Below, in pieces: positions 13,672 through 63,536 of a stretch of DNA of 64,000 nt. Origin of the DNA: Mesaphorura yosii (Eukaryota > Arthropoda > Collembola > Poduromorpha > Tullbergiidae); the NCBI GenBank assembly GCA_009869945.1, contig WIXG01000284.1, forward strand, positions 39,159 to 103,158. Direction: 5' to 3'. Every line of letters starts with the position of its first letter. Position 1 is the stretch's first letter. The notes under the pieces are model-generated. The model ran no database searches, was not told where the DNA came from, and saw only the letters and a program-made list of their open reading frames with translations. The position numbers and the translations under genes were made by a program.

Positions 13672-15771
13672 ATGCTTGCTGAAATCGTCGTGCTCGTGTT
13701 CACATTCCCCGTCGCGTACTTTTTGTACCTCAAGTACAAATTCAGGAACTTTCCACCAGGTGGGTGTCACCATTCCTTTCATTGACTACGTGGTCGTAGT
13801 ATAGTGTGTAAGCTGAATTATGCGAAACACGTGTCTAGGTCCATGGGGAGTTCCACTGATGGGATACTTGCCGTATTTGGGACCGACTCCGCATCGGAAG
13901 TACAGTGAACTGGCAGCAAAATACGGAAATGTGTTCAGTGTCACGTTTGGAAACCTGCCGTAAGTCAACAGCAGAGCTCGTGCCAAATCATATAGTTGTC
14001 TGCTGCGTGTATTTCTCATATGACCCCGTCTTTTTAGCGTCGTCGTACTCAATGACTATGAAATCATCAGGAAAGCTCTGAGATCCGATGCCTTCTCCGG
14101 ACGACCAAACAAAGCTGTACTGGCGATGGCCATGATAAAAGAAGGTTGCCAATCACAAACTTTAAGACTACTAATTAGTTAGTACTCTACTAACCAAGTT
14201 CCGGGTCGGTCAGGGTGCCGAATACTTGAAGATTGTGCTAGTACCGCGTTCGATTTACAGGACTGAGCTTCAATGAAGGCCAGGTGTGGGTTGATCAGCG
14301 GAGATTCACGCTCAAAGTGCTGAAGGATCTGGGATTCGGCAAAAGTTCACTCGAAGGCTCAGTTCAGGAGGAACTTCACCGACTGGTTGGGTACTTGAAG
14401 TAAGAAATGTTTGTGTGTGAAATGTAAGCCGAGTTTGATGAAATGGTTACAACTGCCTTATTTGGTTGCGGCACACAGAACGCAAGTTGACAAACCCGTC
14501 AACCTGAAGTACGTGTTCGAGATTTCGGTCATGAACACGCTGTGGTTGATTACTGCTGGAGAATCACATGCGTACGACGACCCGATTGCACTTCGCTGGC
14601 ATAAATTGGCGTACGAGTAAGTGACCGACACACCGTTCAAGCTGAGGTCACGCCGTCGGGAGAGAAAAAAAATAATACAGCATTTCATTGCCATTACAGA
14701 GGTTTCATTGAACCGGAAGTTGCTGGCCCCGTCTGGTTTATGCCCTGGCTTGCGAAAATTGCACCTGACCGCACTGGGTTCACGAATCTTGTAGCTTCCG
14801 TGAAGAACCTTCGTAATGAATTTCGGCAGTTTGTCATGCACCGTGAAGAATCGCCAAATCAGGTACCCATGGACTTTATCGACTTTTACCTGCAAGAAAT
14901 TCGGGAAACGACAGATCCTGCCTCAAGTTTTTATAAAGACACGGGAAGTAAGTCCGCAGAGCAGGCGAAAAAAAACTTGCTCTTGACGTTTCTAGTTAAG
15001 ACCTTTACATATAGAAAATGATAACGGTTTACAGCTTGCCTCTTTGTATTTGGCAGTTAAAAATTTAGTTGACTTGCTGATCAACCTGTTCTCGGCTGGT
15101 TCGGACACGACAAGTGCCACACTTGGATGGGGCTTTTTGTACCTACTCAAGTACCCGGAAATTTATCGGAAATGGAAACAGGAACTGACCAGAGTTTGTG
15201 GCCCCGGGAATTTCCCGACGCTGGCCGATAAACCAAAGTATTAGTTAAATACGCATCGTTTCATTCTATTTGGTTTCGCATTTGGCATTTGTCAAGTTCG
15301 TAACATGACTTCTGGTCTTCCTTTTGTAGCCTTCCCTACACCGAAGCCACAATTCACGAACTCCTTCGCATCACGTCTATTACGTCCGGAGCTTTGCTGC
15401 ACAGCACAACTGAAGCCATCCAATTCGAGTCGTTCGACTTGCCCAAAGGAACCATCGTTTTGCCCAACCTGTTCCATTGCCAACACGATGAGAAGTACTG
15501 GGGCGATCCGGAAGAATTCAGACCTGAACGGTGGCTCTCGGATGGAGTTTTCAAGAAGGATGAACATTCCATCCCATTTTCAGTGGGAAAACGGATTTGT
15601 CCAGCAGAACATTTGGCATTGCTGAATCTTTTCATCATTTTCACGGGGCTCATCCAGACGTTTGACTTTACGGCGTATGATGGCGAGCCGCTTCCCAGCT
15701 TGGACCCGAAACCGGGTCTCGTGTTGCATCCACAACCGTACAAGATGGTTCTGAAACTGAGGAAGCACTGA
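13672..15771 (+). CDS. Cytochrome P450, CYP2 clan (tandem copy 1)
   Basis: Eight exons: 13672-13759, 13839-13959, 14038-14144, 14261-14399, 14479-14616, 14700-14947, 15057-15237 and 15330-15771, giving 487 residues. The N-terminus is a membrane anchor (MLAEIVVLVFTFPVAYFLYL) followed by the proline hinge NFPPGPWGVP. P450 signatures follow in order: C-helix WVDQRRF, I-helix oxygen-binding AGSDTT, K-helix ExxR within EATIHELLR, FRPERW, and the haem loop PFSVGKRICPAEHLA with the thiolate cysteine. The enzyme should sit in the ER membrane and oxidise small lipophilic substrates with electrons from P450 reductase; the substrate is unknown. The haem loop has Ala where CYP2 enzymes normally have Gly two residues after the cysteine. 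AATAAA lies 23 nt after the stop. The next gene is a close paralogue with the same length. Confidence 0.93.
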
Positions 15772-16055: not shown

Positions 16056-17988
16056 ATGTTAGCCGAGGCGTGTGTATTCGTTCTCGTCTTCACGCTCGCG
16101 TACTTTCTTCATACGCGTAGAAAATTTAAGTCTTTTCCACCTGGACCATGGGGCCTACCCATCGTGGGCTACTTGCCATTCATGGGCTCGAGTCCACACA
16201 CGAAATACGCAACGCTGGGCAAAAGGTACGGCAAGATTTTCAGCGTCACGTTTGGGAGCTTGCCGTAAGTGCCTTCAACAGACTCACCTTAAAACCACCT
16301 TGGGTCATTTCCCCCATATTTACACACAGAATTGTGGTATTAAACGACTTGGATCTGATTCGCAAGGCATTCAAGCAAGACGTGTTTCAAGGCAGACCAA
16401 AATCCGTACTCGCAATGAGCATTGTTAACGATGGTAGTGTTTCGTGGTCTTGTAAATATAATTATATCTTCAGTGACAATTTCTAACGATTCTCTTGCGA
16501 ACTTGTGATTCGAATTCAGGCATTACATTCAACGAAGGTAAGCCGTGGTTTGAGCAGCGCAGGTTCACCCTGAAAGTGCTTCGGGATTTGGGATTTGGGA
16601 AAACATCTCTCGAGAGCTCGCTGCATGAAGAGGTGCAAGGCCTCATCAATTATTTCAGGTAATTCAAGATACAACAATTTGATTCCAGGTTTAGCTTCAG
16701 GACAAGACTTTGGCATGGTTCGGTTTGATCAATTGCAGGACACAAGTGAACAGACCGATCAGCCTGAAGCACACTCTTGAGATTGCCGTAATTAATACGC
16801 TGTGGTACATCGTCTGCAGCAAAAAGTACTCCCTGGATGACCCGGAAGCAATTTATATTCATAAGCTGTGCTATGAGTAGGCCAATATTGCATTCATTGG
16901 TTTTGTGTTTTGTCACTTAGTCTTCGGTCAAGTCAAAGATTTTCTTGCACAGAGGCTTCATTGAGCCCGAAGTCGCTGGTCCGTTGTGGTTCATGCCCTG
17001 GCTCGCGAAACTGGCACCAAATTGGACTGGTTTGAACGCTCTTATTCGTGCCACAGATGAGACTTGCGCTCTTTTCCGGAGAATGGTCAACGAAAGGCGC
17101 AAGACGTGGAAACCGACTGAACTCCACGATTTCGTGGATGCGTACTTGCTGGAAATTGAAAATACAAAGGACCCAAACTCAAGTTTCTACAAGGAAGAAG
17201 GAAGCAAGTTGACAACAAGCTTTCGCTGTAAATCAAAGTATCTAAGTCCTGTTGTAGAATGATAGTTTCTGTTTCTTTAGTGAAGAACCTTGTTTGTGTG
17301 CTGTCGGACTTGTTCACGGCCGGGTCGGATACAACCAGCTCCACATTGTCCTGGGCCATTCTGTATATGCTCCACTATCCTGAAGTGTTGGCTAAAGTGA
17401 GAGCCGAGATCGACAATGTTGTTGGCAGGAATCAATTGCCGAGCACGGAAGATCGAGCCAGGTGAGAGCAAAATGCCAAAATCTTTCCTCCTTTCTGCTG
17501 GACAAGTCTGAACTGAACATTGACTGGGCCATTGCCATTTTTACAGGCTTCCATACACTGAAGCCACAATCCACGAAGTATTTCGAATGTCATCCATCGT
17601 TTGCGGTGCGCTTCTTCACAGTACGCTCGAAAACACACACTTTGAAGGCTACTACCTCCCCAAAGGCACGATCACCATGGCTAACCTGTATCATGTTCAC
17701 CATGATCCACAGTACTGGGGCGACCCGGAGAATTTCCGACCAGAACGGTTTCTCGACGCTGAAGGACGCTTTTCCAAAGACGAGGCTCTTGTCCCGTTTT
17801 GTGCTGGCAAGCGAATCTGCCCTGCTGAACAACTGGGCACTACAAACGTCTACCTCTTTTTTACGGGATTGGTTCAAAACTTTGATTTCACTGCTGAGTT
17901 TCCGTTGCCCAGTGTGGATGCGAAGCCTGGACTCGTGCTGGCGACTCAAGGCTACAAAGTGGTACTGACAGACAGAAAGGCCGAGTGA
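16056..17988 (+). CDS. Cytochrome P450, CYP2 clan (tandem copy 2)
   Basis: Seven exons: 16056-16264, 16330-16433, 16520-16658, 16739-16876, 16953-17203, 17281-17461 and 17547-17988, giving 487 residues, the same as copy 1. Signatures: anchor MLAEACVFVLVFTLAYFL, hinge SFPPGPWGLP, C-helix WFEQRRF, I-helix AGSDTTSS, K-helix EATIHEVFR, FRPERF, and haem loop PFCAGKRICPAEQLG. All intron positions match copy 1, except that the intron after the PPG hinge is missing here. The fifth intron begins with GC (GCAAGT) instead of GT; frame and the neighbouring protein sequence (EEGS/MKNLV) match copy 1 only if that GC donor is used. This is a recent tandem duplicate, probably an ER monooxygenase; substrate unknown. 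Confidence 0.92.
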
Positions 17989-54925: not shown

Positions 54926-56181
54926 ATGCTGTTCACTAACAAAACTTTTCAGTGCATAAACTTCAGTATTACGACCGCAGCGTATTTTAGCGGTACAGTT
55001 TTGATTTGGGATCATTTCAGAAATCGCGTCGTCGTCAGAGCACGGGAAGATGGGAAGCCGCGAAGGAAGTTTGGAAACGCGTGGGACTCGGTTCGTGTGT
55101 CGGTTTCCTGTGCTATAAGCGCTCTTTTCGGGCTAGTGTCCTCCACCTCCGTCTGGATTCGGTACACCAGCGACGATCGCTTGGATTTAAGCGAGCCGGA
55201 GACTATTTTCCAGCTGGCTTCAGTGGCCGTGTCCTCAATTTCAGTTCTCTTCGTATTTTCTGTCCTGCCAGCCACTGGCGAAATTGCCACGTTGCTGAAT
55301 ATCCTCATCCAGGTCTGCACCACGTACGACAAGGAGAAAGAAGTGGCGCACGCGCAGGCAAGGTCTAAACGGAAGCCCGGAAGTATCATCTTGTGTGATG
55401 TCGTATTCGCTGCCACGCTAGCGTCAAACGGCGCGATCGTCCTAGCTCTTGGCTTGATTTATTTGTCCACTTGCGAATTGCATTTCTTCCACGTCCTCCT
55501 GCCGGACCTCACTTGCGGCTTCGGCTCGAATCCATTCGTGAGAATTTTACTGGCGACCATGCAAACTTTGATAATGGCACACTACATTGGAACCATGAAC
55601 GTTGTTCTCTGCTATGTGTATCCGGCCTGGTTTTTTCTGCCAACAATGCTGAAGGAACTGCGGTATGACCGCGCAGAGAAATTGTCACTTCAACTTTGAT
55701 TGAATTTTGCTTTTCTGCTTTCTTTTCTAGGACACGAAACGGCTTTGCCGACCTCGAGCGTTTCCTTGAAGTTTATCGCAGTCTCCAAGTCCTGCAAGCA
55801 ATGTCCAACGCAAGCATCCTCTCCAGTTATGTGATACCTGGACACTTTGCAGTGGTTTACAGTGTATTTGTACTTGGATTTAATACGATCGTCAAGCAGA
55901 CTGCTCCAGCATTGTTCATCGGAATGTGCGCCATATTTTGCGGAGTATGTGTCCTACATTACATATTCCCGCTGTCGCAGTTGCAGTCTTTCACTGGACA
56001 TTCGAGTGCTCTGTTGAGACACGTCAAAGCGACCCGAAATCTCAAACAAGACGAGAAGTTGTTTAAAGCTATCCAACCTCTCAAGACCAGACTGGGCTCT
56101 GTGGGCTACTTCGACAATGCAATGTACTTCTTCATTGCGACAGTCATCATTCAAATGACAATCAATGTTGTACTCCTTTGA
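54926..56181 (+). CDS. Multi-pass membrane protein A, chemoreceptor-like tandem family
   Basis: Two exons, 54926-55662 and 55731-56181, giving 395 residues. ATG at 54926 (MLFTNKTFQCINFSITTAAY) was chosen because the two paralogues downstream begin the same way. About seven or eight hydrophobic helices can be counted, for example TIFQLASVAVSSISVLFVFS, ILATMQTLIMAHYIG-type segments, ALFIGMCAIFCGVCVLHYIF and the C-terminal MYFFIATVIIQMTINVVLL. Conserved features of the family: LSEPET, CELHFFHVLLP, YVYPAWFF, VLGFNTIVK, LQSFTGHS, ALLRHVK, and a terminal PLKTRLGSVGYFD before the last helix. The size and helix count resemble insect gustatory/odorant receptors, but the TYxxxxxQ motif is absent and I cannot confirm homology. 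The single phase-2 intron is at the same place in all three copies. Confidence 0.72.
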
Positions 56182-57047
56182 ATCGGTTTTCCGAGTGTCG
56201 GGTGAAGAACCAGGGCTTTGAATTGATTCCAATTTCCAGTTAGAGCTGACCAATTTACAGTGCAAGTTTCAGGAGTCCAAGCCAAAGTCTGCAAGGAAAT
56301 ATTGCAATCAAACATGGTAAAAATAGTGTTCGTTCAAATAGGAGGTAATGTACCATTTCCCGATTTCTTGTATTACAAATTGAATTGAAGAAATTATTGA
56401 ACTCCAGTTTTGAGCCGTTCTTTTCTCTGCATTGTTCTATTCAATTTATTGTCTAGAAATATGTCGAATATAATAGTCAGAGTGCGAAACAACCTGAAGT
56501 CGAGTCAATAAAGGCTAGACGCGTCTTAGCTTTTCAATGTGCCTATGAATAAATTATGGGAATTGTAAGTTTGGCTCCTCGTGTCCATTTCCTTCGTTTA
56601 ATTATAGTTTCAAGTTAGCAAACTTACTGTCGGAACCATTCATTAACCGAATATTATATGAGTTCCTGGGAGCTGTTTTGGTTAAAGATATGAGGATATA
56701 AATTGTAAAGTGCAAATGAAATTTCGTAGGACATGAAGACATTGTTTATGTTAGGTACGTCCGACCCGATGTGTTTATAATGCCAATTAGTTTTCTCTTA
56801 ACGAAGGAGGCTATCCGTTCCAGCGAATAAATAACTTGGTTATAAGAAGCTATAGCATTATCCTAACAAGCAGTCTATTCCTGTGCTTACGTCCAGGGTG
56901 GCTGGCTCTGTCTTGTAATTCGTGGCTTGGCTTTCCGGGGCAAATTGCTGTTAAATAATGAGTGTGCTATATGTACAGAATTTCCTTGCTGGTATTCGTA
57001 TTCCCATTGCACTTCATTTTCACTTCTGCCTCATAAAAGACAACAAA
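56182..57047. other. Spacer between multi-pass genes A and B
   Basis: I looked for an NPC2 exon on the minus strand, as found after copies B and C, and saw none. No other feature recognised. An in-frame ATG at 56958 could extend gene B upstream by 30 codons. Confidence 0.4.
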
Positions 57048-58308
57048 ATGCTGTTTACCCGGCGAACATTCCAGTGCATAAACCTCAGCATTTCAACCAC
57101 CGCGTATTTTAGTGGAACATCTCTGACTTGGTATCGCGACACACATTTTGTTAACACAAATGAGCTCAGCAGACCGACGCGCTGCAATTGGAAACATCGA
57201 CGCATTTTGACTGCGATTCTCACGTACGGATCCTGCTCGATCAGTGCTATGTTTGCCCTCTTGTCCTACACCTCTTTCTGGCTACATCACTGCAGACTCG
57301 GAAGGATTGAATTCTCGGAACCCGAAACGTTGTTCCTTCTGGCCAGCCTTGCTTTCTCCTCGATTTCAGTCCTGTTTGTGTTCTCTGTCCTCCCGGCACC
57401 CGAAGACATTGCCTGGCTGCTGAATACTCTCATCCAAATATGTGCCACATTCGAACGCCATGTTAGGCCTCAAATGACTGCTAGTTATTGGGGCCGCCAC
57501 ACTCCAACTTCGTGGTGTGACATTCTGTTTGTCTGTACTCTCGCGAGCAATGCCGGGATCGTACTGGCTGTTGGGTTAATTTATTTGCCTTCGTGTGAGT
57601 TACATTTCTTTCACGTACTGTTACCAAATTTGGCTTGTAGCGCGTGTCCGCTGACCAGACTTGTGCTTGCGGTGGTTCAAACGTTGATAATGGCGCATTA
57701 CGTATGTGTAATAAATTTGGTCGTGGCGTTTGTGTACCCTTCGTGGTTCTTCCTGCCTGCCATGATGAAAGAATTGAGGTAAGCGTTTTCAAGTTTAAGG
57801 TTTATAAGTCCAAAAATTGCTTGGCAAGACTTTATTATTTTGCCTTTTCAGGGCAAGATCAAGAATCGGCTTTACTGACTTCAAGTTCATTACGAAGCTT
57901 TACTCCAGACTTCAACTGCTGCAGGCGATAGCCAACTCGAGCATCATCTCCAATTATCTGCTGCCTGGTCACCTTATATTGATTTACGGCGTATTCGTGC
58001 TCGGATTCAATATCATCGTGAAGCACTCCGCCCCGCCCTTGTTCATTGGAATGTGTATCCTATTTTGCGGAGTGTGCGCTTCTCATTACACGTTGCCACT
58101 GTGGCAATTGCAGTCTTTCACTGGACACTCGGTCGCACTTCTCCGCCACGTCAAAGCAGTTCGCAACGGAAAGGAAGACGAGGCGCTGCTCAAGTCGCTA
58201 CAACCGATTAGGACAAGATTGGGCAGTGTAGGCTACTTTGATAAGGAGATGTACGCATTCATTGCAGCCGTCATTATTAATATCACAATCAATATTGTGC
58301 TGCTTTAA
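57048..58308 (+). CDS. Multi-pass membrane protein B, same tandem family
   Basis: Two exons, 57048-57778 and 57852-58308, giving 395 residues like copy A. It begins MLFTRRTFQCINLSISTTAY. It shares with A and C the segments FSEPETLFLLASLAFSSISV, CELHFFHVLLPNLACS, AHYVCVINLVVAFVYPSWFF, LGFNIIVKHSAPPLFIGMCI, LQSFTGHSVALLRHVK, and the end TRLGSVGYFDKEMYAFIAAV. The intron splits an LR codon pair exactly as in the other copies. An alternative ATG at 56958 is in frame and would add 30 residues, but the paralogue alignment favours 57048. The NPC2 gene on the opposite strand ends only 155 nt beyond its stop. Membrane transport or chemoreception is likely; the exact family is not recognised. Confidence 0.72.
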
Positions 58309-58463
58309 CAGAGCTTCGAGTTTCATCAATTAAAATGCTCCAGGTAGAAAATTGATCATTTGGGTTTTCTTCATTGAAATGCTCTCATTAATGTGATTAC
58401 ACGGAATTTATTTCCTTAATATTAATGTAGCCTAATCGTTCACATAATCATAATATCCAGGAA

Positions 58464-59116
58464 TCAGACAGAGATTTTGATATCAGCGTAGAATGAACAG
58501 GTGGAATACTCTCCACTATTCCCGTCAGACACTAGCAAATTCCATCCAGTTGTTCTCTCTCCCTGCAAAGACAAACTCACAATGAAAGAAATGTATCGCA
58601 GATTGATCGGAACAAGCGAGCTTTCAGCTTATCGGTTACCACTTCGGCGCCGGTCAGGGAGTCCTTGGAGTCAGGATGAATAAAAACGCCAGACTTCAGC
58701 GTGTATCTCGTGTGTGCGCTGACTGGACACACGCCTGGGAAAACAGTCTGACAGGAAGATGCCGTCTGGATGTATTCCCCAAAGGATCCGGTTCCTGGTG
58801 CATTCCAGTAAGGATTGTACACTTGAAAGTAAACATCATCACTTCGTGCTGGAGTTTGGAAAGACAAATCAATCTCGATGGAGATAGTGGTTCCCTTTGT
58901 GATTGTGCAAGGCTCCGCAGCACATCGCTGGATCCGGACTTCGGTGATTTCAGCTCTTGCACCTAAGCGTGGTAATTATTCGTGACTTGGACTCTTTATT
59001 CTATTGAAATTAGGCGTTTACTTACAAAGGATTGGCTGGCCTCCATTAACAATTGTGCATGATGCCTTACAAATCAACACCGCCACTACAACGGAACTCA
59101 GCAAGAGATACTTCAT
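58464..59116 (-). CDS. NPC2/MD-2-related lipid-recognition protein, copy 1
   Basis: Three exons on the minus strand: 59116-59026, 58962-58640 and 58562-58464, giving 170 residues. The N-terminus MKYLLLSSVVVAVLICKASC is a signal peptide. The mature part shows the ML-domain pattern: CARAEITEVRIQRC, EPCTITKGTTISIEIDLSF, a central YNPYWN and SCQTVFPGVCPVSAHTRYTL, then TGWNLLVSDGNSGEYSTCSF near the end. Six conserved-type cysteines would form the disulphides. Secreted NPC2 proteins hold sterols or other lipids in a beta-sandwich pocket; in several arthropods, members act as semiochemical carriers in antennae. Intron positions match copy 2. It lies tail-to-tail with multi-pass gene B. Confidence 0.85.
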
Positions 59117-59222
59117 GGCTGATGGCAATTTCTAATTTCTCACTGTTACGGTTGCCCTGCTAGCTCCGAATTGATCAAAACTATTATTCCGGAGTGAAAC
59201 CTAACCATTGCCAACGTTAATG

Positions 59223-59549
59223 TTATGTGTTGAAGTGAGAAATTTGAGTCAAACCTACCGATTTCTTTGCACGTTTCTTTTTGTTATCCCACCATACGCG
59301 AATTTGCTTCGCCGTCCGTTTGCTGACTCCTTGTTGCGAGCTGAATCTTGTGGCAATTACGTCCCAGGTCTTCTGTTTTGTATCGTTGGATCCAAATTTC
59401 TTCAATTTGTCTTCAATTATATGCTTGTACTCGTTGATCAAGTCGAGAAGAAGAGTCTGCTCCAGTGAAGTAACGTCAGGGGCTTTCTTTGGTGCTGTGG
59501 TCTCAATTTCGAAATCACTTCCTTCTTCGGAGTCCATTGTGCACTCCAT
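59223..59549 (-). CDS. Myb/SANT-like DNA-binding domain protein, possible fragment
   Basis: One open exon of 108 residues from ATG at 59549 (MECTMDSEEGSDFEIETTAP). Residues about 30-95 look like a Myb/SANT-like domain of the kind in NAIF1 and transposon-associated proteins: LLLDLINEYKHIIEDKLKKF, KQKTWDVIATRFSSQ, KRTAKQIRVWWDNKKKRAKK with the tryptophans in the usual places. A GTAGGT donor overlaps the end (after AKKS), so this may be the first exon of a longer gene, but the NPC2 gene begins 107 nt further on, leaving little room. A mobile-element remnant is another option: such domains accompany Harbinger-type transposons. Confidence 0.55.
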   Translation of the reverse strand: MECTMDSEEGSDFEIETTAPKKAPDVTSLEQTLLLDLINEYKHIIEDKLKKFGSNDTKQKTWDVIATRFSSQQGVSKRTAKQIRVWWDNKKKRAKKSVGLTQISHFNT

Positions 59550-59682
59550 TGATGATTAGGTGATGATAAGCACAGACAGATTAAACTAAACTTATTGTGG
59601 AAGTGAGGTTTTCTTTTATGAACGAAATTTCGATTTTGGCAAGTGTGATCTTGTTCAAAACTGAAGAGAAATGTAGGATGCA

Positions 59683-59832
59683 TGACCGTGACCGCGTGCA
59701 AAAGATCAGCGTGATCTAGATCAATTGAACCATTACTCGGTTTTCATTATTAATACCATAGTGACCATGATCGTGATCTCCAGCTGAGGATCAGGTCACG
59801 TGATCTTGACCGTGATCCTGAACTTTTAAGTT
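59683..59832. repeat. Cluster of GTGATC/GATCAC elements with a near-palindrome
   Basis: About 150 nt rich in GTGATC and GTGACC strings. The part 59788-59819 reads as an imperfect inverted repeat: a GGATCAGGTCA arm, a central CGTGATCT, and a TGACCGTGATCC arm. It also contains a CACGTG box. It is adjacent to the Myb/SANT-like fragment, so it could be the end of a dead transposon, or a regulatory cluster. Confidence 0.45.
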
Positions 59833-60754
59833 CATTATTAATCCTGCAGTTAAATAGATCTGTAAATCTGTGGATTGCAACTATCATCGCATGTGGGATT
59901 ACACACTCTATTTTGCACGGAAACTTTGGGCATAATACAGCCATTCTCAGAAATTATGCGCTTGACAAAAATTTGTTTTTTTAGTTATGAATGTGTAAAA
60001 TTGGAAAACATTTCGCAGAATTGAGGTTTAGATGGGAAAAGTCAATTATCTAGATAACAGATTCACGAATCACAGAGCGTACGTCGATGTACTTCGCTGT
60101 GTATTGGAGTGCAATTCATATTGAAATTGACTGTTCAATGATTGGCTTCACAGTGCACTGAGCTGTGTGGAGCCACAGAAGAATACTTAGAAGTAGTGAC
60201 TTCATGAAATATTCCGAAGCATATATCCTAGTACTGTCGGTCAACTTTGGAGCAAATGAGAACCGTTTGTATAGTTTCATTAACCTACTACTCGGCGTTA
60301 ACACATATTTAATTTAGACGAATTAGGTTTAGAAGATCCTTCTCTGTTTTGTTTTAGGTTCACGCCAAGAAAGGAAACAATGAATGAATAGCCACAATTA
60401 AAGAAAAGGCGGAAATTCCGGAGCCATGCTTCGCATTTCTCCTGAAAAAGAAGTCGTGAATTTTATAAGAAGCAATGTACGTTTTCGTTGTCGCGACTTC
60501 ATAAGGATTAGATATGGTTCCTTTTCAATGGGCGTTTTACTAGAAATGATTTGTTTTGTCCTTTGATGAACGTGTACTTTCCGCCTTTTGCTTAAAACCC
60601 GCGTGCTGACTGTAACAATTATTTTATGGCAACGGAGCTCGTAATTAAAATATTGATGCCGGGCTTGCCAAGGTCAATCTGTTACCAACACTCTTACTCA
60701 GAATTTTGTTCGCTTGCACTTTAGATCCACGCAAAACGCCGGTAGCACAACAGC
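59833..60754. other. Spacer upstream of multi-pass gene C
   Basis: Holds the promoter of gene C and possibly transposon debris from the neighbouring element. No further coding exon recognised. Confidence 0.4.
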
Positions 60755-61998
60755 ATGCTGTTCACCAAACGAACATATCAGTGCATCCACTTCACCATTA
60801 GAAGTAGCACATATTTCAGTGGAACAGGTCTGGTTTGGGATCCTGTCGGACAAAATGCCCGAGTTAATGATGTCAGCAGTTCGAAATCTAGGCTCAACTG
60901 GGCCACCTTTTCCAAATACGTCTCCTGCTCAATAAGTGCCTTGTTTGCCCTCGTATCCTACACCTCTTTCTGGTTGCATTACTCTAGAGTCGGAAAATTG
61001 GACCTCTCAGAACCCGCAACATTGTTCCTTCTGGCCACGTTTGCTTTCTCTTCAACTTCAGTCCTCTTCGTATTCTCCGTCTTGCCTGCAACTAGGGATA
61101 TTGTCCTTCTCTTGAACACTCTTATCAAGATATGCGGAATCTACGACAAACGACTCAAGCGTAACACACGCGCTGATACTGACTACCATCACAATCAAAT
61201 TCATTGGTGTGACATTCTCCTTCCTTTCATTCTGGCGGGCAATGCTCAGATTGCTCTTGCTGTAGGACTAATCTATTTATCGTCCTGCGAGCTGCATTTC
61301 TTTCACGTACTGATGCCAAATTTAACATGCAACGCAAGTCTGCTGGTCAGGCTTTACCTTGCGGGGGCCCAAACGCTGATTATGGCGCATTACATCTGTA
61401 TTATAAACGTGATTCTGTCTTACGTGTACCCGGCGTGGTTCTTTGTGCCTGCAATTCTGAAGGAACTACGGTAAGGTCCAAGATCTACACTGTCTTTAAA
61501 GTCTTTGTCTTGAGTGCACTTAAAAGCTTTTATGCTTGATGTTTCAGCACAAGAACCGAATTTCCCAACTTCAAATCTTTCAGGAGGTTCTATACCAGCC
61601 TACAATTGCTGGAGACAATGACCAACTCGGGCGTTATGTCCAATTATCTGCTCCCTGGTCACCTTGTGCTGATTTACGGTGTTTTCGTGCTCGGATTCAA
61701 CACCATCGTAAAATGGGCTGGTCCACCGCTATTTCTCGGAATGTGTTGCACGCTTTGTGGAGCTTGCATTCTTCACTACTTGATTCCACTATCGTATTTG
61801 CAGTCATTCACAGGGCTTTCCGCTGATTTGCTGCGGCGTGTCAAGGTAGTTAGAAATCGTAAAAGAAACAGGAAAGTGTTTAAGTCTCTGCGGCCTCTAA
61901 AGACTCGGATGGGCTACGTAGGCTACTTTGACAAGGAAATGTACTTTTTCATTGCACATGTCATAATTCAGATAACCATTAATTTAATCTTGCTTTAA
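60755..61998 (+). CDS. Multi-pass membrane protein C, same tandem family
   Basis: Two exons, 60755-61470 and 61548-61998, giving 388 residues. It starts MLFTKRTYQCIHFTIRSSTY. Shared family segments: LSEPATLFLLATFAFSSTSV, CELHFFHVLMPNLTCNA, AHYICIINVILSYVYPAWFF, YLLPGHLVLIYGVFVLGFNT, LQSFTGLSADLLRRVKVV, and the end KTRMGYVGYFDKEMYFFIAH. The intron is in the same phase and place as in A and B. AATAAA is only 9 nt after the stop, and the orphan NPC2 exon on the other strand ends 37 nt after the stop. Chemoreceptor-like by shape; homology to gustatory receptors not established. Confidence 0.72.
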
Positions 61999-62006
61999 GG
62001 ATGAGC

Positions 62007-62012
62007 AATAAA
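62007..62012 (+). terminator. Polyadenylation signal AATAAA of multi-pass gene C
   Basis: AATAAA starts 9 nt after the stop codon of gene C. If used, the 3' untranslated region is under about 40 nt and ends inside the orphan NPC2 exon region on the other strand. Confidence 0.4.
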
Positions 62013-62034
62013 ATGAATTCACCTCGTGTACATT

Positions 62035-62148
62035 TTATTCAGACAAAAGTTGGAGAATAATTTTAATGTGGACCATGAAAATGCAATATGACTTCTCGCC
62101 TCTGTCCTCGCCGTAAATACTCAAAGACCACCCGGTGTGCCTTTCGGC
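62035..62148 (-). pseudogene. Orphan NPC2 last exon (relic or unrecognised gene end)
   Basis: On the minus strand, a CACTTCAG acceptor is followed by an open frame of 37 codons: AERHTGWSLSIYGEDRGEKS, then YCIFMVHIKIILQLLSE and a stop. It aligns with the third exons of the two complete NPC2 genes (GERTTGWNLLVSDGN and GKRNTGWSLNIQGAD), with the same exon start. No matching first or second exon lies in the 740 nt up to the next NPC2 gene. It is most likely a remnant of a partial duplication. An alternative is that it serves as an alternative last exon for the upstream NPC2 gene at 62888-63536, since both are on the minus strand. Confidence 0.6.
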
Positions 62149-62887
62149 CTGAAGTGACAAAAGAACCCAATTGGCGGAGTACAGAACGCGCCATGACTAA
62201 CATCGATTCCTACTTTGCCAATGCTTTCAGCTCTTCAATTGCTTCAATACTGTACAGTTGCAGAAATTCTCTCCCATCGTTATTTAAATGCATTTTGTGT
62301 AAATCCGTTTGTTAATTGTCGCACAGTTTCATGTTTACACAAGCTAATGCGAGTATTTTGTGTTTCAAAAGAATAATTGCTGTTGGACAAAAATACTCAT
62401 AAAAACACATTTCGGAGAATTGAGATAAGATTCTAAAATATTCGCAGTGCTTTACTCTGTTAAAATTTCCTCTCACCTCTGATTCTAATGTTTAAGGCTT
62501 TGCTCTCTTTCCATTGTAGTCGGTCTCAATAATGTGTAAGTACTAACAAACGAATTACAAACGAAAATTCCTCCTGATTTTTAAGTCGATAAATATTACT
62601 GACGTGTCTATTTTTAGGCTTTTTCGCGCTGAAACGCATGTTTATGTGTTTACCGATTTTGCGTAATTCAATCGCAATTTCCATTTTCAGGCTTTACACG
62701 AATTTGTGTCAGCCCTATGTGCCTAGTCACTTGCGCAAGTAAAGGCTGAACCTGCGCTTTGTTGCGATAATGGATACTCTTTATCTCTTCCATTGTGAGC
62801 TAAATTATTTCTATTCCGAAATTCAAAGGATAAGTCAATTTATTTGACAAAAGTACAGTGTGGATTTTTATTTGGGCACTCAAGACG
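62149..62887. other. Spacer between orphan NPC2 exon and NPC2 copy 2
   Basis: Searched on the minus strand for the missing NPC2 exon 2 (expected signatures ITKG, YWN and YTLKS); none seen. Nothing else recognised. Confidence 0.45.
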
Positions 62888-63536
62888 TTACGCAACAATG
62901 TTGATGTCAACATTGAACAGGCAAGTGGAGTACTGGGCACTGTCCGCGCCCTGAATATTCAAAGACCATCCGGTATTTCGTTTGCCCTAAAACGATTGAA
63001 ATATATATGAATCATGACTTTGGAGCAAGCATTCAGCTAAGATGGGTGGAGTAGCTACCGTATCGGCTCCTGACAGCGAATCCTTCGAGGTGGGATCAAT
63101 GTAAATGCTTGACTTCAGTGTGTATGAGGTCTGAGCCTGAAGTGGGCATGTGTCATCTGGAAATATGTCCGCGCATCCATTTGCCTCTCCAATGTACTCT
63201 CCATATCCTCCGTTCCAGTAAGGGAGGAATACATTGAATGAAATATTGTCACTTTGGTCCGGAGTTTGAAAGGAGAAGTCAAATTCAATCGGGACGGTGT
63301 CACCCTTCGTGATCTGGCAGGGTTCCGCATCACAGCCCTCGATTCTGACCTCGGTTATCTGAGCTCTTGCGCCTGTTAAAGTTAATTGTTCTTCCAGCAA
63401 CACCTCCCTATCGTGAATGTGATTAGCCAGGCTTTCACTTACAAAAGATATCCTTTCCTCCATTTACAGTCGTGCACGTTGCCTGGCAAACTAGAGCTGC
63501 CATCACCGCAATTAAACTGAGTATCGAGAACGCCAT
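62888..63536 (-). CDS. NPC2/MD-2-related lipid-recognition protein, copy 2
   Basis: Three exons on the minus strand: 63536-63443, 63372-63059 and 62986-62888, giving 168 residues. The signal peptide is MAFSILSLIAVMAALVCQAT. The mature protein is close to copy 1: CARAQITEVRIEGC, EPCQITKGDTVPIEFDFSF, FLPYWNGGYGEYIG, CPLQAQTSYTLKSSIYIDPT, TGWSLNIQGADSAQYSTCLF. All intron positions and phases match copy 1, so the two arose by duplication. A secreted lipid carrier is expected. The gap between the arms of the lipid pocket cannot be judged from sequence. It lies downstream of, and convergent with, multi-pass gene C, with the orphan exon between. Confidence 0.86.

Follow-up and report, generated by a model that had tools for sequence, protein, structure and literature searches.

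Tandem seven-span protein genes, candidate divergent receptors, interleaved with NPC2-type genes in the springtail Mesaphorura yosii

The arthropod GR/OR channels (Pfam 7tm_7; Orco) and the GRL proteins are the closest described counterparts of the membrane proteins analysed here. The GR/OR fold has a seventh span divided into TM7a and TM7b and assembles as a tetramer. In the excerpt of PMC9998090 consulted, the GR/OR-like kind is defined by seven spans, an N-terminus inside and longer inner loops; identity within it falls to 8%, and the TM7 motif is partly or not conserved outside insects. The same excerpt places a phase-0 intron before the TM7 exon in GR/OR-type genes. It also describes the Drosophila Grl proteins, which came from structure-model screens and are a precedent for such a layout in proteins whose sequences resemble GRs little or not at all; the models obtained here for our proteins were unusable. 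The portions seen of PMC6080948 and PMC6938034 describe springtails and diplurans as having no ORs, and the latter portion calls springtail GR annotation only partial as of 2019. At least 18 GRs are given for one springtail in the part available of PMC5644144.

NPC2 proteins have been proposed as a carrier class in non-insect arthropods, as stated in an extract of PMC4145409. Going by such partial texts, ML-type families appear large in springtails: Folsomia candida has 78 'group 2 allergens' (PMC5490193), taken as ML by reading of the name only, and Onychiurus arcticus has 11 NPC2 (PMC4145409). Our literature search found no paper joining springtails, gustatory receptors and NPC2, and none on genomic linkage of odorant-binding proteins and odorant receptors in a gene cluster.

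Three tandem seven-span genes

The window is the whole stretch of 64,000 nucleotides that was analysed. Three tandem two-exon genes lie on its plus strand between 54926 and 61998, encoding proteins of 388-395 aa with one conserved intron; gene models and paralog comparison confirmed this part of the initial annotation.

54926..56181, plus strand: gene A, seven-span protein, 395 aa (exons 54926-55662, 55731-56181)
57048..58308, plus strand: gene B, seven-span protein, 395 aa (exons 57048-57778, 57852-58308)
60755..61998, plus strand: gene C, seven-span protein, 388 aa (exons 60755-61470, 61548-61998)

The common intron is GT-AG, phase 2, and at an identical codon position in all three. Splice models were picked by paralog fit and a pyrimidine-rich acceptor, from choices that by script also included open alternatives (402 aa for A; 393 and 391 aa for B; 386 aa for C; and others). 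Protein identity among A, B, and C is 56-60%, and pN/pS is about 0.4, so all three were under past constraint. Conservation is higher in the exon that encodes the last three spans (64 and 62% identity to B) than in the other exon (52 and 58%). A 12-base motif at the exon junction occurs within the window only in A, B, and C, the pattern itself being derived from these three genes. The best other tblastn match in the window had only E 0.29, giving no further copies, and common upstream DNA for the three genes was limited to 20-24-bit matches. A 36-base match (28 bits, E 0.03) links the region upstream of C to sequence near 62404-62438.

The multi-pass topology assigned earlier was upheld: hydropathy gave about seven spans in A, B, and C, counted on a simple hydropathy scale rather than by a trained predictor, with 16 runs above threshold merged manually into seven. 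A weak N-terminal peak at residue 19 was seen in the gene A protein only. Even loops of protein A have 58, 43, 43, and 49 residues, and odd loops 15, 29, 4, and 0. Long even and short odd loops were found in all three proteins, which is the N-inside layout of insect GR/OR channels. The charge bias also pointed to N-inside in each protein, weakly and without significance (P 0.08, 0.31, and 0.10).

Comparison with the GR/OR superfamily

A, B, and C resemble the GR/OR channels and GRL proteins in length (about 390 aa), in their about seven spans and tandem copies, in a predicted inside N-terminus with long inner and short outer loops, and in a chain that stops directly after the seventh span. They differ from GR/OR in showing no detectable sequence similarity, no TYhhhhhQ motif, and a phase-2 instead of a phase-0 intron; the introns of the canonical GR in the window are phase 0. 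Absence of the TYhhhhhQ(F) TM7 motif from all three agrees with the initial annotation, and the chains end in TIN(V/I/L)(V/I)LL.

No match above cut-off was found for A, B, and C in Pfam, 7tm_7 included, and the PDB sequences and NCBIfam gave none even with E allowed up to 10. Weak Pfam matches to AC_N, DUF456, DUF4131, DUF1181, Neurensin, and Bd3614_N (E 0.004-7) were below cut-off and inconsistent among the paralogs, and were rejected as chance. The Pfam and PDB searches are not very sensitive: the GR of the window reaches 28.8 bits and passes 7tm_7 when complete but fails as a rough join without the last exon, and phmmer found no PDB chain for this GR. In viral and prokaryote contigs, searched for relatives with two short peptide patterns each, 48 and 28 matches were obtained, none of them confirmed.

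Alignment scores of A, B, and C against Drosophila Orco and the window's GR were at shuffle level, whereas the control pair, GR and Orco, reached z 5.3, a score attained by 0 of 300 shuffles. Profile comparison with the same two proteins gave probabilities of 0.1-0.2%; its GR-Orco control had P 0.003 at full length and 0.0009 at the C-terminus, yet probabilities of just 11 and 23%. With shuffles that keep hydropathy, only one of 12 comparisons was low, that of C with the GR of the window (P 0.007), and the other 11 gave P 0.07-0.76; this test has little power because its GR-Orco control gave P 0.115 at full length and 0.018 at the C-terminus. AlphaFold models, made for the exons separately with three sequences each, had mean pLDDT of 40.6 and 37.5.

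The silent database searches, the shuffle-level scores beside a GR-Orco pair that does align, and the intron phase unlike that of the window's GR all favor a reading in which A, B, and C have no kinship with chemoreceptors and are seven-span proteins of another sort, such as transporters or channels that form a lineage-specific family and act throughout the body. We regard this as a real possibility, if not a probable one, since the N-inside layout, the short outer loops, and the quickly diverging tandem copies fit the GR-like kind, for which the excerpted PMC9998090 allows such low identity and loss of the TM7 motif outside insects. It is plausible that A, B, and C form a divergent receptor cluster.

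NPC2 genes and layout of the locus

The minus strand carries two complete NPC2 genes and one orphan NPC2 exon, as annotated initially and now borne out by Pfam ML, paralog identity, and the exon match. A Myb/SANT-like open reading frame lies on the same strand.

58464..59116, minus strand: NPC2-1, predicted secreted ML/NPC2-type protein, 170 aa (exons 59116-59026, 58962-58640, 58562-58464)
59223..59555, minus strand: Myb/SANT-like open reading frame between NPC2-1 and gene C (Pfam Myb_DNA-bind_5, 53.2 bits)
62035..62148, minus strand: orphan NPC2 last exon (homology spans 62148-62053; the reading frame continues to a stop at 62035)
62888..63536, minus strand: NPC2-2, predicted secreted ML/NPC2-type protein, 168 aa (exons 63536-63443, 63372-63059, 62986-62888)

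NPC2-2 passes the Pfam ML cut-off (28.0 vs 22.7 bits, E1_DerP2_DerF2); NPC2-1 stays below it (18.6 bits) but is 56% identical to NPC2-2. Both have a signal-like start, judged by eye on the translations, and six cysteines, read from the translations, in the NPC2 spacing. The signal-like start, cysteine spacing, and ML domain are shared with the NPC2/ML family (NPC2, mite group 2 allergens), and the best PDB matches of a window NPC2 protein were NPC2 chains, followed by Der f 2. The window proteins are very divergent from known members, with a best PDB E of 0.0044 and NPC2-1 under the cut-off.

Coordinates and strands support the interleaved arrangement, with NPC2 sequences tail-to-tail with B and C. 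The B stop is 155 bases from the NPC2-1 stop, and the C stop is 54 bases from the homologous end of the orphan exon. B, C, NPC2-1, NPC2-2, and the orphan each have a polyA signal (AATAAA or ATTAAA) no more than 52 bases downstream; for A, none was found within 250 bases of the stop. This convergent layout is no argument for co-expression because it offers no shared promoter. The G+C content of the window is 45%, compared with 37.5% in Folsomia.

The orphan exon matched NPC2-2 at E 1.4e-5 and NPC2-1 at E 0.002, and it is nearest to NPC2-2 (65 of 96 bases, against 50 of 96 for NPC2-1; bootstrap 0.93). No upstream exons were found for it. It retains an in-phase splice acceptor with a pyrimidine run, the Trp, the Cys, and an open frame, and AATAAA lies 14 bases beyond its homologous end. 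These features would suit a last exon that NPC2-2 uses as an alternative, providing a second version of its C-terminal strand, rather than a fossil. Such a role is unlikely, given a pN/pS against NPC2-2 that is near neutral (0.76) and neutral simulations in which the frame stays open in 39% of cases and 10% also keep at least the observed protein identity (15/32).

Origin of the neighborhood

The initial suggestion that a receptor and a carrier were repeatedly duplicated as a unit was weakened by the grouping of the orphan, the order of divergence, the bare gene A, and the Myb/SANT-like frame. Had a single unit been duplicated to give B with NPC2-1 and C with the orphan, one would expect the orphan to group with NPC2-1, except if NPC2-2 was copied later from the orphan; either way, NPC2-1 and NPC2-2 should have diverged no earlier than B and C. 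The orphan groups with NPC2-2, and the synonymous difference is 0.67 for the NPC2 pair and 0.56 for B/C, larger for the NPC2 pair in 97% of bootstraps. At these near-saturated sites, we have moderate confidence that the NPC2 split is the older. A modified version of unit duplication could still hold if B and C underwent gene conversion or if the sites are saturated. Beside gene A, the search for an NPC2 remnant gave just a 14-residue match at 56227-56268 (E 19, chance level), and the Myb/SANT-like frame interrupts the array between the two supposed units. The downstream flanks of B and C had only chance-level matches of up to 14 bits, which are little informative at such divergence.

That a receptor and an NPC2 gene were copied as a block and form a working pair in which the carrier brings the ligand therefore seems to us quite improbable, even though two of the three membrane-protein genes have a tail-to-tail NPC2 exon within 155 bases and part of PMC5810286 places NPC2 proteins in ant and tick chemosensory structures and NPC2 genes in those of a spider. 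The extract of PMC4145409 locates most honeybee NPC2 products in tissues that take no part in chemical communication and reports that antennae of several other insects yielded none. It is likewise very doubtful that A, B, and C are a chemoreceptor channel family missed by sequence searches whose adjoining NPC2 proteins deliver ligands, making this a non-insect carrier-receptor locus.

Our preferred explanation, held with about even confidence, is that two separately growing families overlap here: GR-like receptor channels and locally duplicated secreted NPC2 carriers, with no copying of a unit. A, B, and C would be constrained tandem copies of a membrane protein that evolves fast, has about seven spans, and keeps its N-terminus inside and the bulk of its loop mass cytosolic. 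Its likeliest role is that of a divergent GR-like receptor channel gated by ligand; on this prediction of channel function and ligand class, a small chemical would open a channel assembled from four of these subunits. The NPC2 proteins would be lipid or semiochemical carriers, presumably secreted, that expanded by local duplication, one copy having decayed to its last exon. The neighborhood may thus reflect local duplication and shuffling rather than copying of a receptor-plus-carrier unit; NPC2 genes as neighbors are less surprising because 78 'group 2 allergen' genes are known from a single springtail.

If A, B, and C are receptors, sequence searches miss part of the chemoreceptor repertoire in such animals. 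A linked receptor-NPC2 pair would give a handle on NPC2 as a carrier class of non-insect arthropods.

Gene models and layout of the cluster

The initial annotation described a cluster at 54926-63536, and the gene models and order confirmed that its genes and arrangement are real. Three tandem two-exon genes lay on the plus strand. The minus strand carried a single stray exon and two genes of three exons each. The order was A, B, NPC2-1, a Myb/SANT-like ORF, C, the orphan NPC2 exon, and NPC2-2.

54926-61998, plus: A, B, and C, membrane-protein genes
59116-58464, minus: NPC2-1, ML/NPC2-type gene
59555-59223, minus: Myb/SANT-like DNA-binding ORF between NPC2-1 and gene C (Pfam Myb_DNA-bind_5, 53.2 bits)
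62148-62035, minus: orphan exon, a lone NPC2 last exon (homologous part 62148-62053)
63536-62888, minus: NPC2-2, ML/NPC2-type gene
9048-8680, 8614-7820, and 7732-7670, minus: exons of a canonical gustatory receptor (GR) gene, 408 aa, with Pfam 7tm_7 and the TM7 motif

The A, B, and C proteins (395, 395, and 388 residues, respectively) shared an MLFT start, a single phase-2 intron after KEL, and 56-60% identity. Each gene had alternative open splice choices, and its model was picked for fit to the paralogs. Synonymous differences were 0.68 (A-B), 0.70 (A-C), and 0.56 (B-C). The pN/pS values were 0.39-0.43; therefore constraint has acted on all three. Gene A showed no polyA signal within 250 bases of its stop codon; the other genes have one.

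Further ORFs and exons were noted elsewhere in the window. A minus-strand ORF at 25923-25387 resembles a neuropeptide precursor: its start is signal-like, and basic residues flank the several YYIPR repeats that it carries. Pfam gave no match to it at E up to 1. A tandem pair of C-terminal cytochrome P450 exons lay on the plus strand at 15304-15768 (confirmed by Pfam) and 17524-17988 (judged from its translation). A Methuselah N-terminal-like stretch (minus, 30764-30264) scored 20.8 bits, just under the Pfam cut-off of 21.5, and downstream of it was a hydrophobic ORF with no Pfam match.

Relation of A, B, and C to gustatory and odorant receptors

The window's GR served as control. It showed phase-0 introns and TYTIVIVQL in TM7, near the chain end. 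It passed Pfam 7tm_7 with 28.8 bits (cut-off 26.6) and aligned with Drosophila Orco at z 5.3, above all 300 shuffles. A rough join minus its last exon had no Pfam match; therefore Pfam has limited reach in this case.

A, B, and C had no above-cut-off Pfam match and no match to NCBIfam or PDB sequences at E up to 10, of which the PDB result carries little weight because the window's GR likewise matched no PDB chain. Against Orco and the window's GR they gave shuffle-level scores (z −0.76 to 0.02), and profile comparison with both gave no match. In a low-power test, one of 12 shuffle tests on A, B, and C was low (C with the window's GR, P 0.007). AlphaFold mean pLDDT was 40.6 for exon 1 and 37.5 for exon 2 (exons modelled separately, three sequences each), so predicted structure gives no decision. 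Judged by sequence, A, B, and C would not be assigned to the GR/OR family. PMC9998090 documents GR-like proteins whose sequence similarity is slight or absent, and also TM7 motif loss outside insects.

By eye, A, B, and C could be aligned with the window's GR without gaps at the chain end and in the stretch that follows the second span, and in the last span a Phe and a Thr stood 16 residues apart on both sides of the alignment. This likeness may serve as a lead only.

Averaged hydropathy gave 16 above-threshold runs, which we merged into seven predicted spans at about alignment columns 62-82, 98-118, 162-182, 212-236, 282-302, 307-330, and 380-400; residue 19 of gene A gave an additional weak peak. 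The alternating loops of gene A were 58, 15, 43, 29, 43, 4, 49, and 0 residues long. Basic residues leaned to the long side in all three: on the long and short sides they were 29/193 and 3/48 in A (P 0.08), 25/195 and 4/46 in B (P 0.31), and 33/188 and 4/46 in C (P 0.10), none significant. The predicted layout, with the N-terminus inside and loop mass mostly cytosolic, would be that of insect GR/OR channels and the opposite of a GPCR.

NPC2 genes and history of the cluster

NPC2-2 matched the ML domain with 28.0 bits and, weakly, NPC2 chains in PDB (E 0.0044, 0.0094, and 0.083), followed by Der f 2 (E 0.16). NPC2-1 scored 18.6 bits, under the cut-off, and was 56% identical to NPC2-2. The translations of both showed the NPC2-type six-cysteine spacing. 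The orphan exon retained an acceptor, a 37-codon frame, and a polyA signal; a search for its upstream exons found none.

The proposal that a receptor and carrier were duplicated repeatedly as one unit was weakened by sequence comparison. The orphan exon shared 65/96 bases with NPC2-2 and 50/96 with NPC2-1 (56 between NPC2-1 and NPC2-2), and it grouped with NPC2-2 at bootstrap 0.93. The NPC2-1/NPC2-2 synonymous difference (0.67) exceeded that of B/C in 97% of bootstraps and was similar to that of A/B. A search for an NPC2 remnant adjoining gene A gave only a chance-level match. The B and NPC2-1 genes are convergent, with stops 155 bases apart, a layout without a shared promoter. On moderate evidence, the simplest history would be that NPC2-1 and NPC2-2 split first, that one more NPC2 copy arose locally afterwards and has since decayed, and that B and C split separately; the grade is moderate because B/C gene conversion, or saturation, might mimic the pattern.

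Our literature search found no paper joining springtail, gustatory receptor, and NPC2. In Folsomia candida, 78 of 28,734 genes are named 'group 2 allergen' (PMC5490193); ML/NPC2 is our reading of that name, and the paper does not use the words NPC2, Niemann-Pick, or gustatory. According to PMC4145409, 11 NPC2 were found in Onychiurus arcticus and NPC2 were proposed as semiochemical carriers of non-insect arthropods, but most honeybee NPC2 products occur in tissues with no chemosensory role. NPC2 were reported in chemosensory structures of an ant, a spider, and ticks (PMC5810286). The carrier idea has thus been published, and at least one springtail has many such genes. It is plausible that A, B, and C are a divergent receptor family amid NPC2 genes.
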